From positions 1 to 64,000 of the forward strand of contig JAFQSY010000001.1 of assembly GCA_017409265.1 (NCBI GenBank): 64,000 nt of DNA. The letters run 5' to 3'. Every line of letters begins with the position of its first letter. The first letter of the stretch is position 1. The notes under the pieces are model-generated. The model saw only the letters and a list, made by a program, of their open reading frames with translations. It was not told the origin of the DNA and did no database searches. The translations under genes and the position numbers were made by a program. This stretch comes from Clostridia bacterium (GTDB lineage: Bacteria; Bacillota; Clostridia; Oscillospirales; Acutalibacteraceae). This document shows, piece by piece, positions 4,074 through 61,027 of this stretch.

Positions 4074-6005
4074 TCAGTCAAGTTCAAACTGACCTGTATA
4101 AAGCTGATAATATTTGCCTTGCTGAGCAATGAGGTCGTCGTGGTCGCCGCGCTCGATTATTTCGCCGTTTTCAAGAACCATAATTGCGTTGGAATTGCGG
4201 ACTGTTGAAAGTCTGTGAGCAATAACGAAAACCGTTCTGCCCTCCATGAGCTTATCCATGCCTTTTTCGATAAGGCGTTCCGTTCTTGTGTCGATGGAGC
4301 TTGTCGCCTCGTCAAGAATAAGAACGGGCGGGTCTGCAACTGCGGCTCTTGCAATTGCAAGCAGCTGACGCTGGCCCTGCGAAAGATTTGCGCCGTCGCC
4401 CGTAATCATTGTGTCATAGCCGTCGGGGAGTCTGGTTATGAATGAATCCGCATTTGCAAGCTTTGCCGCTGCAACGATTTCTTCATCTGTTGCATCAAGT
4501 CTGCCGTAAGCGATGTTATCTCTGACGGTGCCTGTGAAAAGGTGGGTATCCTGAAGAACCATTGCCATTGAGCGGCGCAGCTCGGATTTTTTTATCTTCT
4601 TGATGTTGATACCGTCATATGTGATTTTGCCCTCGTCAACATCATAGAAACGGTTGATAAGGTTTGTGATTGTCGTTTTTCCTGCGCCCGTTGAGCCGAC
4701 AAATGCGATTTTTTCGCCTGGTCTTGCGTAGAGCGAAACATTTTTGAGAACGGTCTTTTTGCCGTCATAGCTGAAGGTTACGTCATGGAATCTTACATCG
4801 CCCTTCCACTCGGTATAGGTCAGCGTGCCGTCGCCGTGGGGATGCTTCCATGCCCAGATGCCCGTTCTCTCTTCGCATTCAACAATCGCACCGTTATCAA
4901 GCTTTCTTGCGTTGACAAGGGTAACATAGCCGTTATCCTCTTCAACGGGAGTGTCAATAATCTCAAAAATTCTTTCAGCGCCTGCAAGGGCGGCGATAAT
5001 GTTGTTGAACTGCTGTGAAATCTGGGTTATCGGTTGGAAGAACTGCCTTGTATAAATAAGGAAGGTGAAAAGCGCACCGACGGAAATTCCGAAAAAGTTT
5101 TCTTTGGGAACTGTCATTATCAGCAGCGAGCCGATTGTGGCTGTTGCCGCATAGGTGATGTATGACATGTTACCCATGATGGGCATAAGAATGCTTGCAT
5201 AGGTGTGAGCGTTTGTTGCGGCGTGGCGAAGATTGCCGTTGATAACGCCGAAGCCGCTGTTTGCGGCATCCTCATGGCAGAAAACCTTGATAACCTTGAG
5301 TCCCTCAATATATTCTTCGATATATCCGTTAACTTCGCCGACGCATTTCTGCTGCTGTCTGAAATATTTTGCGCTCTGTTTGCCGAGAGTTTTGACAACA
5401 AAGAAGGCAATAAAGAGCATTGCAATAACAAACAGAGTGAGCACGGGGCTGTAATAGAGCATCATTATGAATGTGCCGACAACCGTAACGGTTGACGAAA
5501 CAAGCTGAACAAAGCTCTGGCTTATGCATTCACGAAGAACGTCGGCATCGTTGGTGTAGCGGCTCATCAGCTCGCCGTGGGTGTGAGTATCAAAAAATTT
5601 GATGGGCAAATCCATCATGTGGTCAAATAAATCCTTACGGATTGTGTTGAGAGTTTTCTGTGCGACCTGAAGCATGATTCTCGAATAAGTGTAGGATGAA
5701 ACAACGCCGAGAATGTAGATAATTCCTAAAATTATGAGAGTTTTAACCAGCGGAGCGAGCAGCTCTTTGGTAATTTCAGAGCCGATAAGCGGGAGAAGGA
5801 AATCGTCGGTTATTGTTTCAACAAAGGAGGTGCCGATAATGCCTGCGAGTGCGCTGAACGCAACAAAAATGAAAACAAAAACAAGCATTATTTTAGATTT
5901 GCCGAGATAGCTGAGCAGCCTTGCAAAGGTTGCTTTGGTGTTTTTCGGCTTCTGAGGGTTGCCGGGACCGCCGCCTTTAGGCGGTTTTTTCATCTTCGGT
6001 GCCAT
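4074..6005 (-). CDS. ABC exporter half-transporter with consensus ATPase site residues
   Basis: 643 residues. A basic/proline-rich N-terminus precedes a six-helix exporter domain (residues about 35-330), then an NBD. The NBD shows Walker A GSTGAGKTT, a Q-loop (VLQDTHLF), the signature LSQGQ, Walker B with catalytic glutamate (LILDEATSS) and the switch histidine (IAHRLS). A segment of about 35 residues containing a Trp/His/Gly-rich stretch is inserted between the two domains. Its ATG overlaps the stop of the gene before it by one base (TAATG), so the two half-transporters are translationally coupled and very likely form a heterodimer. The substrate cannot be read from sequence; a drug or lipid is usual for the family. 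Confidence 0.93.
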   Translation of the reverse strand: MAPKMKKPPKGGGPGNPQKPKNTKATFARLLSYLGKSKIMLVFVFIFVAFSALAGIIGTSFVETITDDFLLPLIGSEITKELLAPLVKTLIILGIIYILGVVSSYTYSRIMLQVAQKTLNTIRKDLFDHMMDLPIKFFDTHTHGELMSRYTNDADVLRECISQSFVQLVSSTVTVVGTFIMMLYYSPVLTLFVIAMLFIAFFVVKTLGKQSAKYFRQQQKCVGEVNGYIEEYIEGLKVIKVFCHEDAANSGFGVINGNLRHAATNAHTYASILMPIMGNMSYITYAATATIGSLLIMTVPKENFFGISVGALFTFLIYTRQFFQPITQISQQFNNIIAALAGAERIFEIIDTPVEEDNGYVTLVNARKLDNGAIVECEERTGIWAWKHPHGDGTLTYTEWKGDVRFHDVTFSYDGKKTVLKNVSLYARPGEKIAFVGSTGAGKTTITNLINRFYDVDEGKITYDGINIKKIKKSELRRSMAMVLQDTHLFTGTVRDNIAYGRLDATDEEIVAAAKLANADSFITRLPDGYDTMITGDGANLSQGQRQLLAIARAAVADPPVLILDEATSSIDTRTERLIEKGMDKLMEGRTVFVIAHRLSTVRNSNAIMVLENGEIIERGDHDDLIAQQGKYYQLYTGQFELD

Positions 6006-51955: not shown

Positions 51956-52564
51956 ATGGACAGATTCAGCTTCATAAAAGACGAAAAACTGCAAAAACAG
52001 ATAAAATTTGCAATTGTTATCGATGAAATGAAAAATATATTCCGCCGAAATCTTATTATTAACGGTTCAAGGCGTGAAAACGATGCGGAGCATTCATGGA
52101 ATCTTGCGATGCTTGCCATGCTTTTTGAAGAGTACAGCACTGAAAAGGTAAATATTGAAAAGGTTCTTAAAATTGCCCTTGTTCACGACCTTATAGAGGT
52201 CTATGCGGGGGATACATTCGCATATGATGCAAAGGGATATGAGGATAAGCTTCAGCGCGAGCTTGAGGCGGCAGATAAGCTTTTCGGCATTCTTGACCCT
52301 GTTCAAGGAGCGGAAATCCGCGCCCTCTGGGATGAATTTGAGGCAAAAGAAACACCCGAATCCAAGTATGCCAACGCAATTGACAGGATTCAACCGCTGA
52401 TAAACAACTATATGACCGATGGCCACACATGGAAAGAGGGAGATGTTCACGCACCGCAGATTTATAAGCGTATGGATATCATCCGCACAACAACTCCCGC
52501 GCTTTGGCCGATTGTTGAGGGAATAATCAACACTTCTATCGAAATCGGAATATTAAAGCCGTAA
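51956..52564 (+). CDS. HD-domain phosphohydrolase (YfbR/HDDC2-like)
   Basis: 202 residues with the HD metal motifs: RRENDAEHSW (His), LVHDLIEVYAGD (His-Asp) and the late AIDRIQPL aspartate. This short form resembles YfbR and HDDC2, which remove phosphate from 2'-deoxynucleoside 5'-monophosphates. GAGGT lies 6 bases before the ATG. It starts 51 bases after serA, past a terminator. The substrate is inferred from the family. Confidence 0.85.
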   Translation: MDRFSFIKDEKLQKQIKFAIVIDEMKNIFRRNLIINGSRRENDAEHSWNLAMLAMLFEEYSTEKVNIEKVLKIALVHDLIEVYAGDTFAYDAKGYEDKLQRELEAADKLFGILDPVQGAEIRALWDEFEAKETPESKYANAIDRIQPLINNYMTDGHTWKEGDVHAPQIYKRMDIIRTTTPALWPIVEGIINTSIEIGILKP

Positions 52565-53525: not shown

Positions 53526-55379
53526 TTAATTATGTTTGAAATTTCTCACTGTGAGAAGAACACCATTTGACAAATCTTCTTTTGTAAAATCAAATAACTC
53601 ATTTGCTATAACCATAATATTTTTTTTAAAATCAGGGTCATATTTATTGTCATATTCAGTTGAATCAATATAGATATATTCAGGAATTTTATCAGGGTTT
53701 TCTTTATAATATGTCATTAAAAGATCCTGATGAAATTCTTCGCTGTACCATGCTGTATAAGAAGCGACAGGCTGTTCAATATACATATACATCCAATTAT
53801 GATAGGATAGAATTAACACAGGTGATTTTTCTGTGCAACGATTTTTGATTAAATCTAAATCATCAATTGATTTTGTGTAATCATCATATTGTTTTTCTGT
53901 CATATATACCCCTGAAAAAGGGCCTACAGTTGCTTTAACCGCATCTTTTCCGGGCCACTGTTTATACTGATAAAAAAGCCCGTGAAAAACTATCTGAAGA
54001 CATAGCCCGATGCATAGCACAGAACGTCCGACCACAACAGCCTTTTTCTTTTTGGAGAATTCTTCTGTCGGTTTTTGACGCATTTCTTTGAACAAATCGC
54101 CGACAAAGAATACACCTGCAACATTGTTGGTTATAAACACTACACTTATTGCTACCAGATGCGCATTAGAAGCAAAGAACTGAAAAAGAGCACCTATCAA
54201 GCAGGGGATCCACATGAAGTTAAATAACTTTTTGTTTTTTTTATCGGTTAGGATGTAGCTGACTGTAGAAAAAATTGCGAAAGGTAGCTCAACAACATTA
54301 AAAGCAGAACTGTCATAGTTGTAAAACATGCTAACCATATACATTATTGATAAAATTAGAGAGAATAAAAGATAAAAACATCTGTGAGAGTTAACTTTTC
54401 GATTTCCGTCGATAAACAATAATATATACAATATCGGTAAGAAATATGACATTCCAAAGCTTAATTTGTTGAAATAAAAATCCGCATTTATCAAGTTCGT
54501 TATTGTTTTTTTCAAGAAAGAAGACTCTACTTTATATTCGCTACTCATTAAAAGGTTGTTTATGTTATTGAACAGGGAGGAAAAGGTTCCGCCAGTAAAT
54601 AAGAAGAAAGCAACAGCAAAAACTGCTATGATTAAGATTCCGACAGATATATAAACAACGGCTTTTTTAGTAAAAAAACAATTGTAATTTTTTGTGTTGC
54701 AAAAAACATCAGTTTGTTTTTGATTGTAAACAGCCTTTTCTGTTTTTGATGAATTATCGGATGTGGAATTGATTAATGCTTTTTTGGGTGGATGTTTGCC
54801 CGACCAGAAAAGAAAAACAATAATATATAAAGCGAAAGCTATGCAAAAAAACGGGTTGCAAATACAGCATAATCCGTAGCAAATTCCTGCAAAAATATAA
54901 AAACGGGTGTTGCCACGATTATGAATTGAGATAATGCAAAGTGAGAGAAGAAGCAAAAAAACAACAAACATAGAATGATAGCTTATTGAGAGAAATCTGT
55001 GAGTTGCTTGGGTAAAATACATGATTGCAGCCGCAACAGCCCATATCTTATACTTTCTGAAAAAGACATATATTAAAACCGTCAAGGATGTATGGATTGA
55101 AAGATATACACACCTTGAAAAAACAACAATTCCTTCGGCAGAGCCCTTCAGGTCAAACCATATACGCATAGGTAAATAAGAAAACAGGGAAGAAAATTGA
55201 GTGAGATGCCATTCGTCCTGAACCAAGCTGTCACCGTTTACAAGCCGGAAAGGAACAGTTAAATAAAATGTTTCGTCAGGAGCATATGGATAGATAAAGA
55301 TAAAAATTCCGAGCAGCAAAAGCCCGAAACATAGTGCAGTGACAAACAAGAAATCTGTATTTTTAAGCCTTTTTTTCAT
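53526..55379 (-). CDS. GT-C-type membrane glycosyltransferase-like protein
   Basis: 617 residues from ATG 55377-55379. About 10-12 membrane helices fill residues 10-475, with a cytoplasmic-type basic loop in the middle (about 200-240). A C-terminal soluble domain follows (SPVLILSYHNWMYMYIEQPVAS). The first external loop contains PYAPDET (Asp35-Glu36), where the catalytic Asp/Glu of PMT/ArnT-type GT-C enzymes lies. Such enzymes move a sugar from a polyprenyl phosphate to a surface acceptor. It is divergent from the five-gene operon and shares its AT-rich base use. The donor is not known. Confidence 0.65.
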   Translation of the reverse strand: MKKRLKNTDFLFVTALCFGLLLLGIFIFIYPYAPDETFYLTVPFRLVNGDSLVQDEWHLTQFSSLFSYLPMRIWFDLKGSAEGIVVFSRCVYLSIHTSLTVLIYVFFRKYKIWAVAAAIMYFTQATHRFLSISYHSMFVVFLLLLSLCIISIHNRGNTRFYIFAGICYGLCCICNPFFCIAFALYIIVFLFWSGKHPPKKALINSTSDNSSKTEKAVYNQKQTDVFCNTKNYNCFFTKKAVVYISVGILIIAVFAVAFFLFTGGTFSSLFNNINNLLMSSEYKVESSFLKKTITNLINADFYFNKLSFGMSYFLPILYILLFIDGNRKVNSHRCFYLLFSLILSIMYMVSMFYNYDSSAFNVVELPFAIFSTVSYILTDKKNKKLFNFMWIPCLIGALFQFFASNAHLVAISVVFITNNVAGVFFVGDLFKEMRQKPTEEFSKKKKAVVVGRSVLCIGLCLQIVFHGLFYQYKQWPGKDAVKATVGPFSGVYMTEKQYDDYTKSIDDLDLIKNRCTEKSPVLILSYHNWMYMYIEQPVASYTAWYSEEFHQDLLMTYYKENPDKIPEYIYIDSTEYDNKYDPDFKKNIMVIANELFDFTKEDLSNGVLLTVRNFKHN

Positions 55380-55502
55380 GATTTGCAACCCTTTTTCTCT
55401 GTTTTAAATAATAATATCATAAAGCTTATACAAAGTCAATTTGCAAGAGATTTATCAAACCAAAAGCAACAAGCAAATATCTTGTTGAAAGACAAAAAAA
55501 TG

Positions 55503-55531
55503 TTGAATTTACATGTTCTCTATGATATAAT
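55503..55531 (+). promoter_or_regulatory. Promoter of the nucleoside/glycan operon
   Basis: TTGAAT (55503-55508), 17 bases, TATAAT (55526-55531). It lies 28 bases upstream of the ATG at 55560, with GGAGAT in between. Confidence 0.75.
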
Positions 55532-55559
55532 TAAAAAAATATATGGAGATACATAAAAA

Positions 55560-57014
55560 ATGAATAAAATTATGTTGCTGTATCCGCCGGGAAAGGCGTA
55601 TCAAAGAAGTGAAGACCGTGCGCAATGCAATATTGATGATTCGGCGGTAGCTACAATTCATGCTTGCAATGATATTGGTTATGCTGCCGCAGTGCTGAAT
55701 AATCGAGGTTATAAAGTTCTTTTAAGAGACTATCAAACCGAGAAAACAGGTTATGAAGAGATTAAAAAAGAAATATTATCTTTTTTGCCCGATATAATTG
55801 TCATTAGCATTACAAACGCAACAATTCTGAATGATATAAATTTTATTAATTGGATTAGTTGCTTTCATTCCTGTGAATTTATTCTAAAGGGTGCAATTTT
55901 TTTTGACGTTCCTTCACATATTCTTGAAACACTGGATTTACACAATGCAAATTATCTCATTGGAGGAGAAATTGATACAGTTATCGGAGACCTGGTTGAT
56001 TGTATTCTTTTGAATAAAGGGTCTATTGACAATGTTAACGGCATTTTATATAAAAAAGATGGTGTATTTAAAAAAACAGATTTTAGCAAATGGTTTGATA
56101 ATTTAGATGAAATACCTTTTCCTGCAAGAGATCTTATGAGAAACGAGTTGTATCCGAGACCGGATACAGGTGAACCGATGGCGACCATACAGGTATCCCG
56201 CGGATGTCCATGTCATTGCACATACTGTCTTACGCCAATAATTTCCGGAACAACGGTCCGAAAAAGAAGTATTGAGAATGTTTTTGCAGAAATAGAAGAA
56301 TGTTATTATAAATACGGCATCAGAAATTTCTTTTTTAAAGCTGACACTTTTACCATAGATGCCCAATGGGCAATGGCTTTGTGTGATAAAATAATCAGTT
56401 CCGATTTGCATGGAAAGATTGAATTTACCGTCAATTCAAGAGCAAAGCCTCTTGAAGCGGAACTGCTTAAAAAGCTTAAAAAGGCAGGCTGTTTTATGCT
56501 TGCTGTTGGTTTTGAAAGCAGTAGTGATGATACATTAAGGAAAATCAAAAAAGGAACAACCCGAGAGGATAATATCCGTGCCGCAAAATTAATCAGAGAA
56601 CACAAGTTGCCTTTGCTTGGATTCTTTATGATAGGTTTTCCTTGGGAAACCAAACAGGATATGCTTGAAACTCTCGAGTTTATTTTTGAAATTGATCCCG
56701 ATTTTATAGAAATTCATGTTGCTCTGCCATATTTTGGCACAGAGCTGAATTTACAATGCGAACAATACAGCACCGTAAAATCAGCATCGTGGGGTAATGA
56801 CTATTTTTCGCCTAACACCATAGGCACCCAAACTGTATCCTTGGATGAAATTCAAAAAATCAGAAATAACTACCTTCTCAAGTTTTATTTGAGGCCAAAA
56901 TACATTGCTAAAAAAATGATATACTGCTTGCAAAAGCCTATTACACTGAAAAATTATTTCGTACATGGTCTGAAGTTGTTAAATTCAGTATTCAAAAAAA
57001 CGGATAACGGGTGA
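55560..57014 (+). CDS. B12-binding-domain radical SAM enzyme
   Basis: 484 residues. The first 150 form a cobalamin-binding-type Rossmann domain (ALLYPP-like start, FLPDIIVISITNATI, then YLIGGEIDTVIGDLV) without an obvious DxHxxG base-off motif. The radical SAM core follows with RGCPCHCTYC (Cys216, Cys220, Cys223), VNSRAKPLEAELLKKL and AVGFESSSDDTL. The group includes BchE, HpnJ and HpnR; the chemistry here is unknown (methyl transfer, ring change or adenosylation are all possible). It is the first gene of the operon and would produce 5'-deoxyadenosine or an adenosyl product. GT2 starts 6 bases after it. Confidence 0.85.
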   Translation: MNKIMLLYPPGKAYQRSEDRAQCNIDDSAVATIHACNDIGYAAAVLNNRGYKVLLRDYQTEKTGYEEIKKEILSFLPDIIVISITNATILNDINFINWISCFHSCEFILKGAIFFDVPSHILETLDLHNANYLIGGEIDTVIGDLVDCILLNKGSIDNVNGILYKKDGVFKKTDFSKWFDNLDEIPFPARDLMRNELYPRPDTGEPMATIQVSRGCPCHCTYCLTPIISGTTVRKRSIENVFAEIEECYYKYGIRNFFFKADTFTIDAQWAMALCDKIISSDLHGKIEFTVNSRAKPLEAELLKKLKKAGCFMLAVGFESSSDDTLRKIKKGTTREDNIRAAKLIREHKLPLLGFFMIGFPWETKQDMLETLEFIFEIDPDFIEIHVALPYFGTELNLQCEQYSTVKSASWGNDYFSPNTIGTQTVSLDEIQKIRNNYLLKFYLRPKYIAKKMIYCLQKPITLKNYFVHGLKLLNSVFKKTDNG

Positions 57015-57020
57015 CTCAAA

Positions 57021-57962
57021 ATGTTTAATGATAAAAAGCATATATCTGTTGTTGTACCGATTTACAACGAGGTTTCCATGCTTCATGAAATATATGACAG
57101 AATTACTGCTGTATTCAAAGGCTTGGACAACTATACATATGAAATAGTTTTTTTTGATGACGGTTCTACTGACGGAACACGTGATGCTGTTGAAGAGCTC
57201 TGCGCAAAACACGACGAAGCAAAATGTGTTTTTTATACAAAAAATTTCGGTTATTTAAAAAACACGTTTTATTGCATGCAGCAGGCAAAAGGCGATTGTG
57301 CCATTATTGTTCATGCTGATTTGCAAAACCCTCCTGAAATTATTCCGGAGTTTATAAAAAAATGGGAAAACGGTGCCCAAGTGGTTCTCGGAGTAAAAAA
57401 CAAAAGCAAAGAGAACAAAGTTCTTTATTTCTTGAGAACTGTGTTTTATTTTCTCATGATTAATTTTTTTGGTGTCAAATTAACTCCTCATGCTACCGAA
57501 TTTGAACTGTTTGACAGAAGCTTTATTGAAATATTAAAAAAAATAAAAACAAACGCACCTTTTTTGAGAGGAATTGTAAAAGAATATGCATCGTCAATTG
57601 ACTATGTATATTACACGCAGGATTCAAGAAAAAAAGGCAAATCCAAATTCAATTTTAACAAATACTATGATTTTGCATTGTGTGGCATAACACAATATTC
57701 GACTTGTTTGCCTAGAAAAATCATACTTTTCTCTGTTATAGCACTTATTGCTCTTGCAGCAGAATTTTGTTTTGTTATAGTGCCTAACATAGCCCAAACA
57801 GAATTAATTACAATCGCAAACTCTATAATTATAAGATGTGTTCTAGCGGCACTGTGCGTGTTAATTATTGTTGTATGCATAATGTTTGAATATATTATTT
57901 CCATAAATAACAAAAAGGATGAAAAACCTTTTATTGTTGAAGAGAAAAGAATTGACTATTAA
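57021..57962 (+). CDS. GT2-family polyprenyl-phosphate glycosyltransferase (GtrB/DPM1-like)
   Basis: 313 residues. The GT-A domain has VVVPIYNE, FFDDGSTDGT (Asp46, Asp47), HADLQNPPE (usually DADLQDPPE; His98 replaces the first Asp) and FLRGIVKEYASS. Two C-terminal membrane helices (about residues 225-250 and 265-295) are as in GtrB and dolichol-phosphate-mannose synthases. It would move a sugar from a nucleotide donor to a polyprenyl phosphate at the inner membrane face. The next gene starts 31 bases later. Confidence 0.9.
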   Translation: MFNDKKHISVVVPIYNEVSMLHEIYDRITAVFKGLDNYTYEIVFFDDGSTDGTRDAVEELCAKHDEAKCVFYTKNFGYLKNTFYCMQQAKGDCAIIVHADLQNPPEIIPEFIKKWENGAQVVLGVKNKSKENKVLYFLRTVFYFLMINFFGVKLTPHATEFELFDRSFIEILKKIKTNAPFLRGIVKEYASSIDYVYYTQDSRKKGKSKFNFNKYYDFALCGITQYSTCLPRKIILFSVIALIALAAEFCFVIVPNIAQTELITIANSIIIRCVLAALCVLIIVVCIMFEYIISINNKKDEKPFIVEEKRIDY

Positions 57963-57993
57963 TAAATATATTTAAGTAACAGGATGAATTGCA

Positions 57994-58719
57994 ATGAAGG
58001 AAACAGCTCAGATAAAACTGCTTAATGAAACAGGATTTGCAAAAACCGTTATTATGCCGGGGGATCCGATCAGAGCAAAAATGATTGCCGAAACATTCCT
58101 TGAAAACGCTGTTCTTGTTAATAATGTAAGGGTTGCACAAGGTTATACTGGATACTATAAAGGTAAAAAAATCTCGGTTATGGCAAGCGGAATGGGAATG
58201 CCTTCAATGGGAATATACTCCTATGAACTGTTCAATTTTTTTGATGTTGAAAACATAATCAGAGTCGGCACTGCGGGTGGTTTGACCGAGGATGCAAAGC
58301 TGAAAGATGTTGTTGTTGGTCTTGGTGCAAATACAGATTCAAATTATGCAAATCAGTTTTGTGTTAACGGAACAGTTGCGCCGGTTTGTTCATATGAACT
58401 CCTTTTATGTGCTGTAAAAGCTGCAGAAAAGCTTAACATTAAGCTTAAGGTTGGCAATTTTTATTCAACTGATGTGTTTTACAATTTTGATAAGACTGCA
58501 AACGAAAAATGGGCTGCTCTCGGCTCCGTTGCAGTAGAAATGGAATCGGCAAGTTTGTATCTGAATGCGCTGAAATGTAAAAAAAGAGCTCTTGCAATCT
58601 GTACTATATCCGATCTTCCGTTAGTTGACGGTTGTCCCGGCTGTACTGTTGAGGAAAGAGAAAACACCTTTACCGATATGATAAAAATTGCACTTGAAAT
58701 TGCTGCGGAAATACAATAA
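57994..58719 (+). CDS. deoD: Purine-nucleoside phosphorylase (DeoD type)
   Basis: 241 residues with the hexameric PNP plan: VIMPGDPIRAKM, SGMGMPSMGIYSYEL, RVGTAGGL, VEMESASLYL and TISDLP (Ser206-Asp207), then EERENTFTDM. It phosphorolyses purine ribonucleosides to base and ribose 1-phosphate. In this operon it sits before an adenosine-type deaminase and a nucleotidyltransferase, so its sugar-1-phosphate product may be kept for glycan synthesis rather than salvage. The base preference and 5'-position tolerance cannot be read off. Confidence 0.92.
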   Translation: MKETAQIKLLNETGFAKTVIMPGDPIRAKMIAETFLENAVLVNNVRVAQGYTGYYKGKKISVMASGMGMPSMGIYSYELFNFFDVENIIRVGTAGGLTEDAKLKDVVVGLGANTDSNYANQFCVNGTVAPVCSYELLLCAVKAAEKLNIKLKVGNFYSTDVFYNFDKTANEKWAALGSVAVEMESASLYLNALKCKKRALAICTISDLPLVDGCPGCTVEERENTFTDMIKIALEIAAEIQ

Positions 58720-58731
58720 AAGGAAAATCAT

Positions 58732-60015
58732 ATGAAATACAGAATAAAAAACGGGCACTTGCTTCTTTATTCAGACAATAAATTTCAAATAAAAAAAGAT
58801 GATTTGTTTGTTAACGGAACAACAATTGAAGCTGTTGGCGGAAATAGCATTAAGGATCATGAAAAATATGAAGAGATTGATGCTGACGGCAATTTGGTTA
58901 TGCCCGGACTTATAAATTCACATACGCACGCATATATGAATTTTATGAAAAATTCTGCCGATGACATGCCCTTCGACAAATGGTTATTTAACAAAATTTT
59001 TTCTGTTGAATCTAAAATAAGCAGGCCTGATTTTTATTGGACAACATTGCTCGGATGCATTGAAATGATAAAGACAGGCACGACATGTTATCTTGATATG
59101 CATATCTGTGAAGATGAGTGCGCAAAGGCAGCGAAAGATTCTGGTATGCGCGCTTTTATCGGAAAATGTATTGTCGGAACAGATTTGTATGCCGATGGTT
59201 ATGATAGCTTCAAAAAAGCACTTAACGAAAAAGACACATATGAAAGCGATTTGTTGAAATTCGTATTGTCTCCGCATTCTGTGTATGCTTGTTCTTCTGC
59301 TTTGCTTAAACAAATATCAAACGAATCGCAAAAAAGAAACATGTTGAAGCATATACATCTTTCCGAAAGTAAAAAAGAAGTAGAGGATTGTTTGGCTGAA
59401 CATGGAAAAACTCCGGTTGAACTGTTAACTTCAATAGGTTTTCTTGACAGTAAAACAATTTCTGCTCATTGTGTCAATTTAAATTATAACGACATTTGTG
59501 CTTTAAGAAAAAATCAAGCCAGCGTTGTTTTGTGTCCGTCCAGCAATGCTAAATTAGGCAACGGTATTGCACCCGCTTCAAATATGCTGAAAGATGAAAT
59601 TAATGTTTGCTTGGGAACGGATTCATCAGCAAGCAACAACACTCTTAATATGTTCAGAGAGATGTCCGTTTTTTCATTGATAAACAAAGCAGCAAATGAA
59701 ACTGCAACAGGTTTTTCTGCAAATACTGTCCTTGAATGTGCTACGATAAACCCTTCAATTGCACTCAACATGAAGAATAAAATCGGTGTAATATCCGAGG
59801 GCGCATGTGCAGACTTGGTTTTTGTTGATTTAAAATCACCCTCAATTTTCCCCAACAATAATATGGTTTCTTCTCTTTGTTATTCCGCAAACGGCAGCGA
59901 AGTTAAATCAGTTATGATTAACGGGAATTTTGTTATGAGAAACGGAGTTTTAACAACAATTGATTCTGAAAAGGTATATTACGAAATAAACCGTATAGTT
60001 AATACATATTTATGA
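58732..60015 (+). CDS. Amidohydrolase, MTA/SAH/5'-deoxyadenosine deaminase type
   Basis: 427 residues. Metal site NSHTHAYMN (His64, His66), HLSESKKEVED, SAHCVNL and CLGTDSSASNN follow the MtaD/DadD group of the amidohydrolase superfamily, which deaminates the adenine of S-adenosylhomocysteine, 5'-methylthioadenosine or 5'-deoxyadenosine. Deamination would make the inosine-type nucleoside that the adjacent PNP could split. It starts 12 bases after that gene. Guanine or cytosine deamination is less likely. Confidence 0.85.
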   Translation: MKYRIKNGHLLLYSDNKFQIKKDDLFVNGTTIEAVGGNSIKDHEKYEEIDADGNLVMPGLINSHTHAYMNFMKNSADDMPFDKWLFNKIFSVESKISRPDFYWTTLLGCIEMIKTGTTCYLDMHICEDECAKAAKDSGMRAFIGKCIVGTDLYADGYDSFKKALNEKDTYESDLLKFVLSPHSVYACSSALLKQISNESQKRNMLKHIHLSESKKEVEDCLAEHGKTPVELLTSIGFLDSKTISAHCVNLNYNDICALRKNQASVVLCPSSNAKLGNGIAPASNMLKDEINVCLGTDSSASNNTLNMFREMSVFSLINKAANETATGFSANTVLECATINPSIALNMKNKIGVISEGACADLVFVDLKSPSIFPNNNMVSSLCYSANGSEVKSVMINGNFVMRNGVLTTIDSEKVYYEINRIVNTYL

Positions 60016-60027
60016 GAAGATGAAAAA

Positions 60028-60759
60028 ATGATTGGAATAATACTTGCAGGCGGTGATGGGCGCCGGCTAAAAGACAGCTTTAATAATGATTGTTGCAAGC
60101 CGTTGGTTACAGTTAACAATAAAAAGTTGATAGAATATGCTCTTGAAAATCTGATTGAACTTGACATCAACATGGCTTACATTGTTGTTGGCAAAAAGAG
60201 TGATATGATAATAAAAACCATCGGCAATGAATATAAAAATCTGAAAATCCGTTATGTTTATCAACCTGAACAAAAAGGGCTTATCAATGCCGTTGTTCAG
60301 GCGCTCAACGACATGACATGTGATGAAACTGTTGTTTTGCAGTTATCAGATGAAATTTTTATTGATTTAAAAACGGAAACAATTAAAAGAAATATTGAAT
60401 CGGGGGATTACGATTTTTATTGCGGTGTTACTATTGAAGAAGATCCCCAAAAAATCAAGAGCAATTTTTCTGTTGAAATTGATGACAGTCTTAACATAAA
60501 AAAATGCACAGAAAAGCCTCTTGTTGTCACGAACGACCTAAAGGGTACCGGATTTTGCGTTTTTAATAACACCATGTTGCAAATGTTGAAAAGTCACTAT
60601 AACGACGAAAACAACACTCCCTACGATTTATGCGATTATATCAATTGGTTAATAAAGGAAAATAAAAAAGGATTAGCTTTACCTGTTGCAAAAAGAGAGT
60701 TTAATATTAACACTTTGGAAAACTTGATTGAAGCACAAAATTATTTTATGGCGATATAA
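60028..60759 (+). CDS. Sugar-1-phosphate nucleotidyltransferase-like protein
   Basis: 243 residues of the nucleotidyltransferase fold. The N-terminal GIILAGGDGRRLKD loop and KPLVTVNNKKLIEYALENL are those of GT-A pyrophosphorylases. VLQLSDEIFID stands where the metal Asp of the LGDNIF-type segment lies. The end (INTLENLIEAQNYF) is also typical. It would activate a sugar 1-phosphate with an NTP; the sugar cannot be told by sequence. It is the last gene of the operon, 12 bases after the deaminase, and a strong terminator follows. Confidence 0.88.
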   Translation: MIGIILAGGDGRRLKDSFNNDCCKPLVTVNNKKLIEYALENLIELDINMAYIVVGKKSDMIIKTIGNEYKNLKIRYVYQPEQKGLINAVVQALNDMTCDETVVLQLSDEIFIDLKTETIKRNIESGDYDFYCGVTIEEDPQKIKSNFSVEIDDSLNIKKCTEKPLVVTNDLKGTGFCVFNNTMLQMLKSHYNDENNTPYDLCDYINWLIKENKKGLALPVAKREFNINTLENLIEAQNYFMAI

Positions 60760-60814
60760 GCAGAATAGAATTGTACGAAGTCATGGTGAAATCACATTAG
60801 AATAATTAATTATT

Positions 60815-60849
60815 CAAAAGCCGACGGGGTTTTAATCCGTCGGCTTTTG
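60815..60849. terminator. Terminator of the nucleoside/glycan operon
   Basis: CAAAAGCCGACGG pairs with CCGTCGGCTTTTG (13 bp, 9-base loop). The T4 arm serves the plus strand and the A4 arm would serve the minus strand. Confidence 0.92.
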
Positions 60850-60850
60850 A

Positions 60851-61027
60851 ATTGGTGCGATTAAATTATCCGATAACTACCGAAAAAACATAGTTGAGGA
60901 GTTTTGTGAGTCCGTCCATTTTCCAGTTGAGGCAATCCCAGATGAAGTAGAAGAATCTGCAAGAGAGGCACGCCATAAAATTTTGTGTAAAAAGACTTTG
61001 GATAGTCAAAGAAAAAGGCTGATATGA
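60851..61027 (+). pseudogene. Gene remnant without a start codon
   Basis: A frame of 58 codons opens right after a stop at 60848-60850 and closes with TGA at 61025. It has no ATG, GTG or TTG near its beginning and no ribosome site. It encodes protein-like sequence (KNIVEEFCESVHFPVEAIP, EESAREARHKILCKKTLDSQ). It looks like the surviving 3' part of a gene cut by a rearrangement at the island edge. The parent gene was not recognised. The gap from 60850 to 61377 otherwise holds only the hairpin at 61118 and the TetR promoter. Confidence 0.4.

Follow-up and report, generated by a model that had tools for sequence, protein, structure and literature searches.

A putative route from adenine nucleosides to a lipid-linked sugar donor in a gene island of a gut clostridium

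The first 64,000 nucleotides of contig JAFQSY010000001.1 from a Clostridia bacterium of the family Acutalibacteraceae (GenBank assembly GCA_017409265.1), hereafter the window, hold an AT-rich island (positions 53526 to 60849) in which five close-packed genes encode a radical S-adenosylmethionine (SAM) enzyme, a family 2 glycosyltransferase (GT2), a nucleoside phosphorylase, a predicted nucleoside deaminase and a sugar 1-phosphate nucleotidyltransferase, with a sixth, divergent gene for a membrane protein. Our analysis suggests that this operon probably makes a lipid-linked sugar donor from the ribose moiety of adenine nucleosides, the likeliest sources being the 5'-modified nucleosides left by the use of SAM. 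From comparisons of gene content, co-conservation and altered residues we infer every reaction of the route, as well as the identity of its sugar and its acceptor.

In the proposed route, the deaminase (58732-60015, + strand), an amidohydrolase of presumed MtaD/DadD/TM0936 type, would turn an adenine nucleoside into the hypoxanthine nucleoside, which the DeoD-type phosphorylase (57994-58719, +) would split into hypoxanthine and a pentose 1-phosphate. The nucleotidyltransferase (60028-60759, +) would convert the latter into a nucleoside diphosphate (NDP)-pentose, and the GT2 (57021-57962, +), a predicted polyprenyl-phosphate sugar synthase of the GtrB/ArnC type, would attach the pentose to polyprenyl phosphate. 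A membrane protein, DUF2142-like in the window (53526-55388, - strand) and here called c1 in related loci, would be the likely user of the lipid-linked pentose outside, and the radical SAM enzyme (55560-57014, +) would be an optional step altering the sugar or its carrier. Likelier substrates than adenosine would be 5'-deoxyadenosine or 5'-methylthioadenosine (MTA). In a fuller version, which we hold only tentatively, a dedicated pathway would trap the waste sugar of SAM chemistry (5-deoxyribose or 5-methylthioribose) as the 1-phosphate, convert it into a nucleotide sugar and then into its polyprenyl-phosphate form, and incorporate it into a surface glycan, in some genomes after editing by radical SAM enzymes that add to this waste themselves.

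One mycobacterial sugar is already known to arise from a nucleoside as a lipid-linked pentose. If the proposal is true, a route of this kind exists in gut Clostridia with a different set of enzymes, a by-product of SAM chemistry finds a use, and some gut bacteria are predicted to display unknown sugars on their surface. In the literature searched, no description of this gene set was found. Genomes and loci of the comparison are labelled G and L, G000 being the window's own genome, and papers are cited by their PMC number from excerpts of their text.

A four-gene core in another genus

A search of 200 genomes of the family with the phosphorylase led to G187, which belongs to another genus of the family and in which one locus (L062) carries the GT2, phosphorylase, deaminase and nucleotidyltransferase genes in the same order, with identities of 72, 68, 63 and 53%, respectively, and gaps of 17, 18 and 13 bases. 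This recurrence of the four enzymes as one operon supports the proposed chain, as does the finding that deaminases of two different clades adjoin the same nucleotidyltransferase (see below). Both islands lie slightly downstream of homologs of genes that we take to be serC-serA. In the 19.5 kb of L062 that were read there is neither a radical SAM homolog nor an open frame with the CxxxCxxC motif, and G187 and G043, the latter discussed further on, are not among the radical SAM matches listed. The original prediction had drawn a chain from adenine nucleoside to polyprenyl-phosphate pentose, and this part is supported by the L062 operon and the two deaminase clades; its radical SAM enzyme, missing from L062, falls outside the core. 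It had also proposed looking for the same neighbourhood in other genomes, and indeed the four-gene set occurs in one other genome and the pair of deaminase and nucleotidyltransferase genes in five more loci.

Two deaminase clades beside one nucleotidyltransferase

The deaminase matches Amidohydro_1 with 240 bits, above the cut-off, and has the metal-binding motifs HTH, HIH, AHC and GTD, whereas the equivalog cut-offs of DadD (306, cut-off 522) and MtaD (262, cut-off 779) are not reached. It is the only copy found in its own genome at E 1e-5, and viral contigs gave no match to it. The nucleotidyltransferase has the RmlA/GalU/GlmU fold with the LAxGxGxR nucleotide motif (Pfam NTP_transferase, 86 bits, above the cut-off), and its orthologs (E <= 1e-35) were found in 8 of 371 family genomes, the window's own included. 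In six of these eight a deaminase gene stands 12 to 200 bases away, at 12 or 13 bases within an operon in G000 and G187, and in divergent orientation at 137 (G043), 61 (G073), 200 (G162) and 65 (G184) bases. The deaminase gene is distant in G098, and none was found at E 1e-60 in G060, a genome that is 82% complete. Deaminases of this kind (E 1e-60) occur anywhere in 68 of the 398 family genomes, and their presence in seven of the eight nucleotidyltransferase genomes has a P of about 2e-5, to be read with the genomes not being independent and the two genome sets differing slightly.

Across 14 nucleotidyltransferase loci, GTDB contigs and G746 among them, the deaminase gene is adjacent in seven, and the deaminases of these seven linked loci fall into two separate clades, with support of 100/99 and 95/89 and starred branches between them, so that the link with the nucleotidyltransferase would have arisen twice, or one deaminase would have replaced another. 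Loci are available for 30 deaminase matches, and wider stretches were fetched for 16 regions. In the first clade, five of the nine other fetched members adjoin ahcY (L098, L100, L101, L102 and L105). In the second, all four fetched sisters lie near a gene for an MtnA-like isomerase, adjacent in L108, L110 and L112 and one gene away in L109, the isomerases scoring above the cut-off of PRK05720 and below that of TIGR00512. MtnA acts on 5-methylthio- and 5-deoxyribose 1-phosphate in the dihydroxyacetone phosphate (DHAP) shunt (excerpts of PMC6079011 and PMC10986504). Where the second-clade sisters have this isomerase, the nucleotidyltransferase loci have the nucleotidyltransferase. An inosine/guanosine-type phosphorylase stands in the same row in L110, L112 and, in the next clade out, L111, and about 3 kb off in L108.

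Some of the rows in these relatives deserve a description of their own. A trimeric purine nucleoside phosphorylase, a nucleoside deaminase and an MtnA-like isomerase are aligned in L110 (8579-11783), L112 (1616-4819) and L111 (7552-10692), which we read as a deaminase-first salvage route for MTA or 5'-deoxyadenosine. In L098 (7186-11784) a deaminase, a DeoD phosphorylase, a second deaminase and ahcY follow one another.

A 5-modified sugar or ribose

The same chain could start from plain adenosine and pass through ribose 1-phosphate to a lipid-linked ribose donor. DeoD enzymes normally act on ribonucleosides, and ahcY, which the five first-clade relatives adjoin, releases adenosine. The link of the second clade with MtnA and the altered residues in deaminases and phosphorylases favour a 5-modified sugar over ribose, and we consider the ribose version decidedly improbable.

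The first of these residues is position 145 of the deaminase (window numbering), which is Lys in six of the seven linked proteins and in one of 27 unlinked ones, 21 of the latter having Arg; this count covers the seven linked loci and 27 other proteins out of the 68 genomes with matches. The change from Arg to Lys is seen in both deaminase clades. We take the equivalent Arg of TM0936 to lie near the 5' side chain, and the roles of Arg136 and Arg148 are likewise presumed.

The phosphorylase matches PNP_UDP_1 with 123 bits, above the cut-off, and is of the DeoD type (TIGR00107, 258.5, cut-off 232.25; PRK05819, 287.8, cut-off 230), scoring 277 for PRK13374, below its 338. It is the second DeoD-type copy of its genome, in which the salvage copy, with His at position 4, is encoded on another contig (C86, locus L035). 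Since the genome holds a separate deoC-deoD-cdd salvage set and the nucleosidase Pfs, the copies in the island come on top of these. A tree of 11 rows joins the phosphorylases of the window and L062 in one clade (100/98), which falls within the salvage DeoDs of genus g4 and apart from the salvage copy of the window's own genome. Gln replaces His4 in both of these operon phosphorylases, a position with His in seven other aligned DeoDs, that of E. coli included, and also in the copies of G073 and G043. The window protein keeps Asp204, Arg217 and Glu181, departing from the full set at His4, and the G187 protein has, besides Gln for His4, Asn in place of Asp204.

We take Asn to be the residue of trimeric phosphorylases at the position of Asp204. 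Its presence in G187 would agree with a phosphorylase that receives its substrate from a deaminase, and might just as well reflect a loss of activity. Trimeric phosphorylases accept 6-oxopurines only, and the Asp204Ala/Arg217Ala double mutant of E. coli keeps about 0.1% of the activity (excerpts of PMC13057136). According to the parts of PMC8102628 cited, the ordinary purine phosphorylases of Synechococcus apparently do not process 5'-deoxyadenosine.

An optional radical SAM module

The radical SAM protein matches the Pfam domain with 86 bits, above the cut-off, and by score is HpnJ/AprD4-like, reaching the equivalog level of neither (HpnJ, the best NCBIfam match, 161 bits, cut-off 577.6; AprD4, 102.6, cut-off 500). 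No Pfam B12 domain was found in it, such a domain being present in its neighbour in L011. Its gene was found in seven of the 398 family genomes, that of the window among them, and among 394 genomes of the order searched at E 1e-80 matches came only from its own genome and G098. In a scan of GTDB contigs, 8 of 11 loci carry orthologs and the other three are remote (27-28%); one contig is common to the family genomes and the GTDB contigs (G162 = L015). Orthologs at 52-62% identity were collected from 14 other loci, and in 12 of the 15 loci read, window included, the nucleotidyltransferase gene lies in the same stretch. Many of the radical SAM loci also have a B12-type radical SAM gene and a c1 membrane protein gene. 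In plasmid records, 66 had radical SAM matches and none reached 60% identity, the five listed being at 24-27%.

The radical SAM enzyme is not a core part, because the four-gene set occurs in L062 without its gene. In L099, from G043, the nucleotidyltransferase, GT2 and c1 genes stand together with a divergent deaminase gene, and there is no radical SAM gene between the nucleotidyltransferase and the GT2, whereas two congeners, G162 (L015) and G746 (L034), have two radical SAM genes at this very place. The cassette is thus a module that comes and goes, and the idea of an obligatory radical SAM step was rejected, given that a member of this radical SAM family is found neither in L062 nor in L099.

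This distribution bears on a simpler explanation, in which the deaminase and phosphorylase would merely clear the inhibitory 5'-deoxyadenosine that radical SAM enzymes release in a locus for surface sugars, the nucleotidyltransferase and GT2 using an unrelated sugar. Radical SAM genes do occur in 12 of 14 nucleotidyltransferase loci, and 5'-deoxyadenosine inhibits radical SAM enzymes (excerpts of PMC6079011 and PMC8102628). However, the L062 deaminase and phosphorylase share an operon with the GT2 and nucleotidyltransferase where no radical SAM frame was found in 19.5 kb, the L099 deaminase is divergent from a nucleotidyltransferase lacking the radical SAM pair (an unrelated, convergent radical SAM gene being present there), and the genome of the window has Pfs for clearance. 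Mere disposal is, in our judgement, unlikely.

The original prediction also offered a second model, adenosylation of a lipid by the radical SAM enzyme in the manner of HpnH in hopanoid synthesis, with the nucleoside enzymes processing the product, which would here be a trimming like that by HpnG. In outline, the set of radical SAM enzyme, phosphorylase and GT2 presumably resembles hpnG/H/I/J, and among NCBIfam models the radical SAM protein scores highest for HpnJ. However, this score falls far short of its cut-off, the 25 families listed of 36 do not include HpnH, the phosphorylase is of the DeoD type and scores only 25 bits for HpnG (cut-off 187), and the four-gene set exists without a radical SAM gene. 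The model did not survive these comparisons, and we regard it as very improbable.

Other radical SAM-like genes were noticed as well. In L014, L024 and L066, several long homologs (about 630-690 aa, with one reading frame of 1290) stand in tandem within these sugar islands; one of them was checked against Pfam, and its B12 domain match is below the cut-off. On contig C31 of the window's own genome there is a second sugar locus (L067) with an HddA-like kinase, a cupin-like gene, an SDR-like gene, a 413-aa nucleotidyltransferase-like gene and a 629-aa homolog of the B12-type radical SAM proteins. The convergent gene of L099 mentioned above (4604-5695) encodes an unrelated radical SAM-like protein with the motif CNLHCAGC, on the c1 side.

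Observations that weigh against the pathway

A number of observations speak against the route from nucleoside to lipid-linked sugar. Seven of the 14 nucleotidyltransferase loci lack an adjacent deaminase gene, three of these seven being contigs of less than 10 kb, and 12 of the 14 have no DeoD-type phosphorylase in the stretch read, the trimeric type not having been searched for. The GT2 gene lies less than 5 kb from the nucleotidyltransferase gene in only five of the eight family genomes that have the latter. Three radical SAM loci, L010, L013 and L023, have no nucleotidyltransferase in the stretch read, the first two being short contigs and L023 a stretch of 14.8 kb with radical SAM, GT2 and c1 genes. 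In the 19.5 kb read of L062 there is no DUF2142-like or c1 homolog, and the structure model of the window's membrane protein, with a pLDDT of 37, is too poor to show a GT-C fold.

The altered residues also have their exceptions. The L099 deaminase retains Arg at position 145, and Lys is found in one unlinked row. The Asn of the G187 phosphorylase could, from this one sequence, mean lost or reduced activity, and this copy may also serve salvage, since no other DeoD-type phosphorylase was found in G187 at E 1e-10. Concerning His4, we had assumed its contact to be with the 5'-hydroxyl, which the passages of PMC3434127 do not bear out. In these, the sugar hydroxyls are bonded by His4 from the adjacent subunit, and for the 5'-hydroxyl of adenosine water is named as the usual partner, with Arg43 taking that place in one complex (section 16); a contact between His4 and the 5'-hydroxyl is not clear from them, a point in favour of ribose. 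Gln in place of His4 is therefore not established as what sets the 5' specificity.

The nucleotidyltransferase brings in another alternative, a heptose or hexose pathway in which an HddC- or RmlA-like enzyme would act on a hexose or heptose 1-phosphate, the nucleoside genes being neighbours by chance or for other reasons. The best NCBIfam score of the enzyme is that of AglF (105 bits, cut-off 400), HddC reaching 48 (cut-off 300), which does not assign it to HddC. Its 50 solved relatives listed act on hexose 1-phosphates, and the lack of a pentose 1-phosphate enzyme among these 50 structures is uninformative. Moreover, a GmhA-like gene follows the nucleotidyltransferase-deaminase pair in L024 and an HddA-like kinase gene adjoins it in L025, in two species of one genus, both below the curated cut-offs. 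However, among the seven nucleotidyltransferase genomes searched, a set without G043 and G187, such a gene stands beside the pair only in G073 and G184, which belong to one genus (g73); in G000, G162 and G746 such genes are on other contigs, and none was found in G060 and G098. The link with the deaminase, furthermore, occurs with two deaminase clades. We consider this explanation improbable, and as a general reading the heptose pathway was rejected.

Relation to known systems

The known system closest in kind to the proposed nucleoside-to-lipid route is the capping of mycobacterial lipoarabinomannan with methylthioxylose (MTX), by MtxS (Rv0539) and MtxT (Rv0541c). In MTX capping, a polyprenyl-phosphate-linked pentose originates from an adenine nucleoside of SAM metabolism and serves a GT-C enzyme outside as donor; the island is predicted to make a donor of the same sort, for which the membrane protein would be a candidate user. 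MtxS is presumably a GT2. In contrast to MTX, the island has a deaminase, a DeoD-type phosphorylase, a sugar nucleotidyltransferase and an optional radical SAM enzyme, in gut Clostridia, a comparison made at the level of description; the set would be another route of the MTX kind, with other enzymes. MtxS forms the lipid-linked sugar of MTX (excerpts of PMC11127046 and PMC8780516, a figure legend of the latter naming both MtxS and MtxT), which starts from MTA, unlike the pentofuranoses based on phosphoribosyl pyrophosphate (PRPP), and the 2024 paper calls it unclear whether this reaction occurs anywhere beyond the assembly of lipoarabinomannan (excerpts of PMC11127046).

Lipid-linked pentoses are also used outside the cytoplasm by the three-component pentofuranose systems (PPPRS, flippase and GT136) and in the form of mycobacterial decaprenyl-phosphate ribose and arabinose (excerpts of PMC11127046). 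A lipid-linked pentose donor is proposed for the island as well, but those systems draw on PRPP through a PPPRS that does not resemble GtrB, whereas the lipid-carrier enzyme of the island is of the GtrB type, which together with the nucleotidyltransferase points to an NDP-pentose. A pentose 1-phosphate from 5'-deoxyadenosine or MTA is formed in 5-deoxyribose salvage by the DHAP shunt (MtnP or MtnN plus MtnK, MtnA and an aldolase) and in the formation of 7-deoxysedoheptulose (excerpts of PMC6079011, PMC10986504 and PMC8102628). Those pathways break the sugar down by isomerisation and cleavage, or excrete it, whereas in the island it would be activated and kept. In other routes a phosphorylase acts on the way from an adenine nucleoside derivative to a glycoside or lipid, namely in arsenosugar synthesis (ArsS, phosphorylase and glycosyltransferases) and with the hopanoid enzymes HpnH, HpnG and HpnJ; to our knowledge, these use other radical SAM families and have no deaminase and no GtrB-type enzyme.

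Layout of the island and its membrane proteins

All six open reading frames were found as originally described, five of them co-directional, with gaps of 6, 31, 12 and 12 bases, and that of the membrane protein divergent. The GC content of the island is 34.1%, against a mean of 45.4% (standard deviation 1.0%) in 93 overlapping windows of equal size upstream, which bears out the AT-rich block of the original prediction. Third-position GC is 0.28-0.34 in all six genes and 0.43-0.52 in the four preceding genes; it is also low (0.36) in the TetR gene 3' of the island. Because the radical SAM gene was not found in any of the six same-genus genomes listed, the island is patchy and was probably acquired. 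A search of 12 congeners gave no insertion boundary: the flanking DUF1295 gene is present in one of them, G755 (L039), and synteny does not extend past this gene. Two genes upstream of the island there is an HD_3/YfbR-like gene (5'-deoxynucleotidase-like; 51956-52564), with a third-position GC of 0.44 and no homolog in L062.

Promoter-like sites are well placed both for the operon (TTGAAT-17-TATAAT with TG ahead of the -10, 55503-55531, + strand) and for the divergent gene (TTGACT-17-TATTAT, 55411-55439, - strand). Both are consensus matches, and in a scan such sites are no commoner than chance (30 found, 31.3 expected), so that only their position supports these two. The predicted terminator fared better, as the sequence at 60812-60852 (+) folds into an intrinsic terminator hairpin of -27.2 kcal/mol (z -5.8 when folded alone), although it is absent from the listing of the signal scan.

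The two glycosyltransferases that had been claimed are confirmed as far as the GT2 is concerned. This protein has a GT2 domain (PF00535, Glycos_transf_2, 91 bits, above the cut-off) followed by a short membrane part, with four hydrophobic segments by a crude count and two to three in orthologs, and matches GtrB in the PDB (5ekp, 124 bits, E 6e-35 over residues 7-297; ArnC, 73 bits), in agreement with the GtrB/ArnC type. The second is the membrane protein, a candidate acceptor-side transferase whose GT-C nature is unproven and whose match to DUF2142 (PF09913, 22.5 bits) stays below the cut-off of 30.1. It has nine hydrophobic segments by the crude count, plus a C-terminal part. Its ortholog in L011, 47% identical and with 12 such segments, is likewise divergent from a radical SAM gene, and a fragment of another occurs in L010. 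As for the c1 membrane protein of related loci, it is present in six copies in one stretch of L023 and in three copies in L066, as if a transferase family were expanding.

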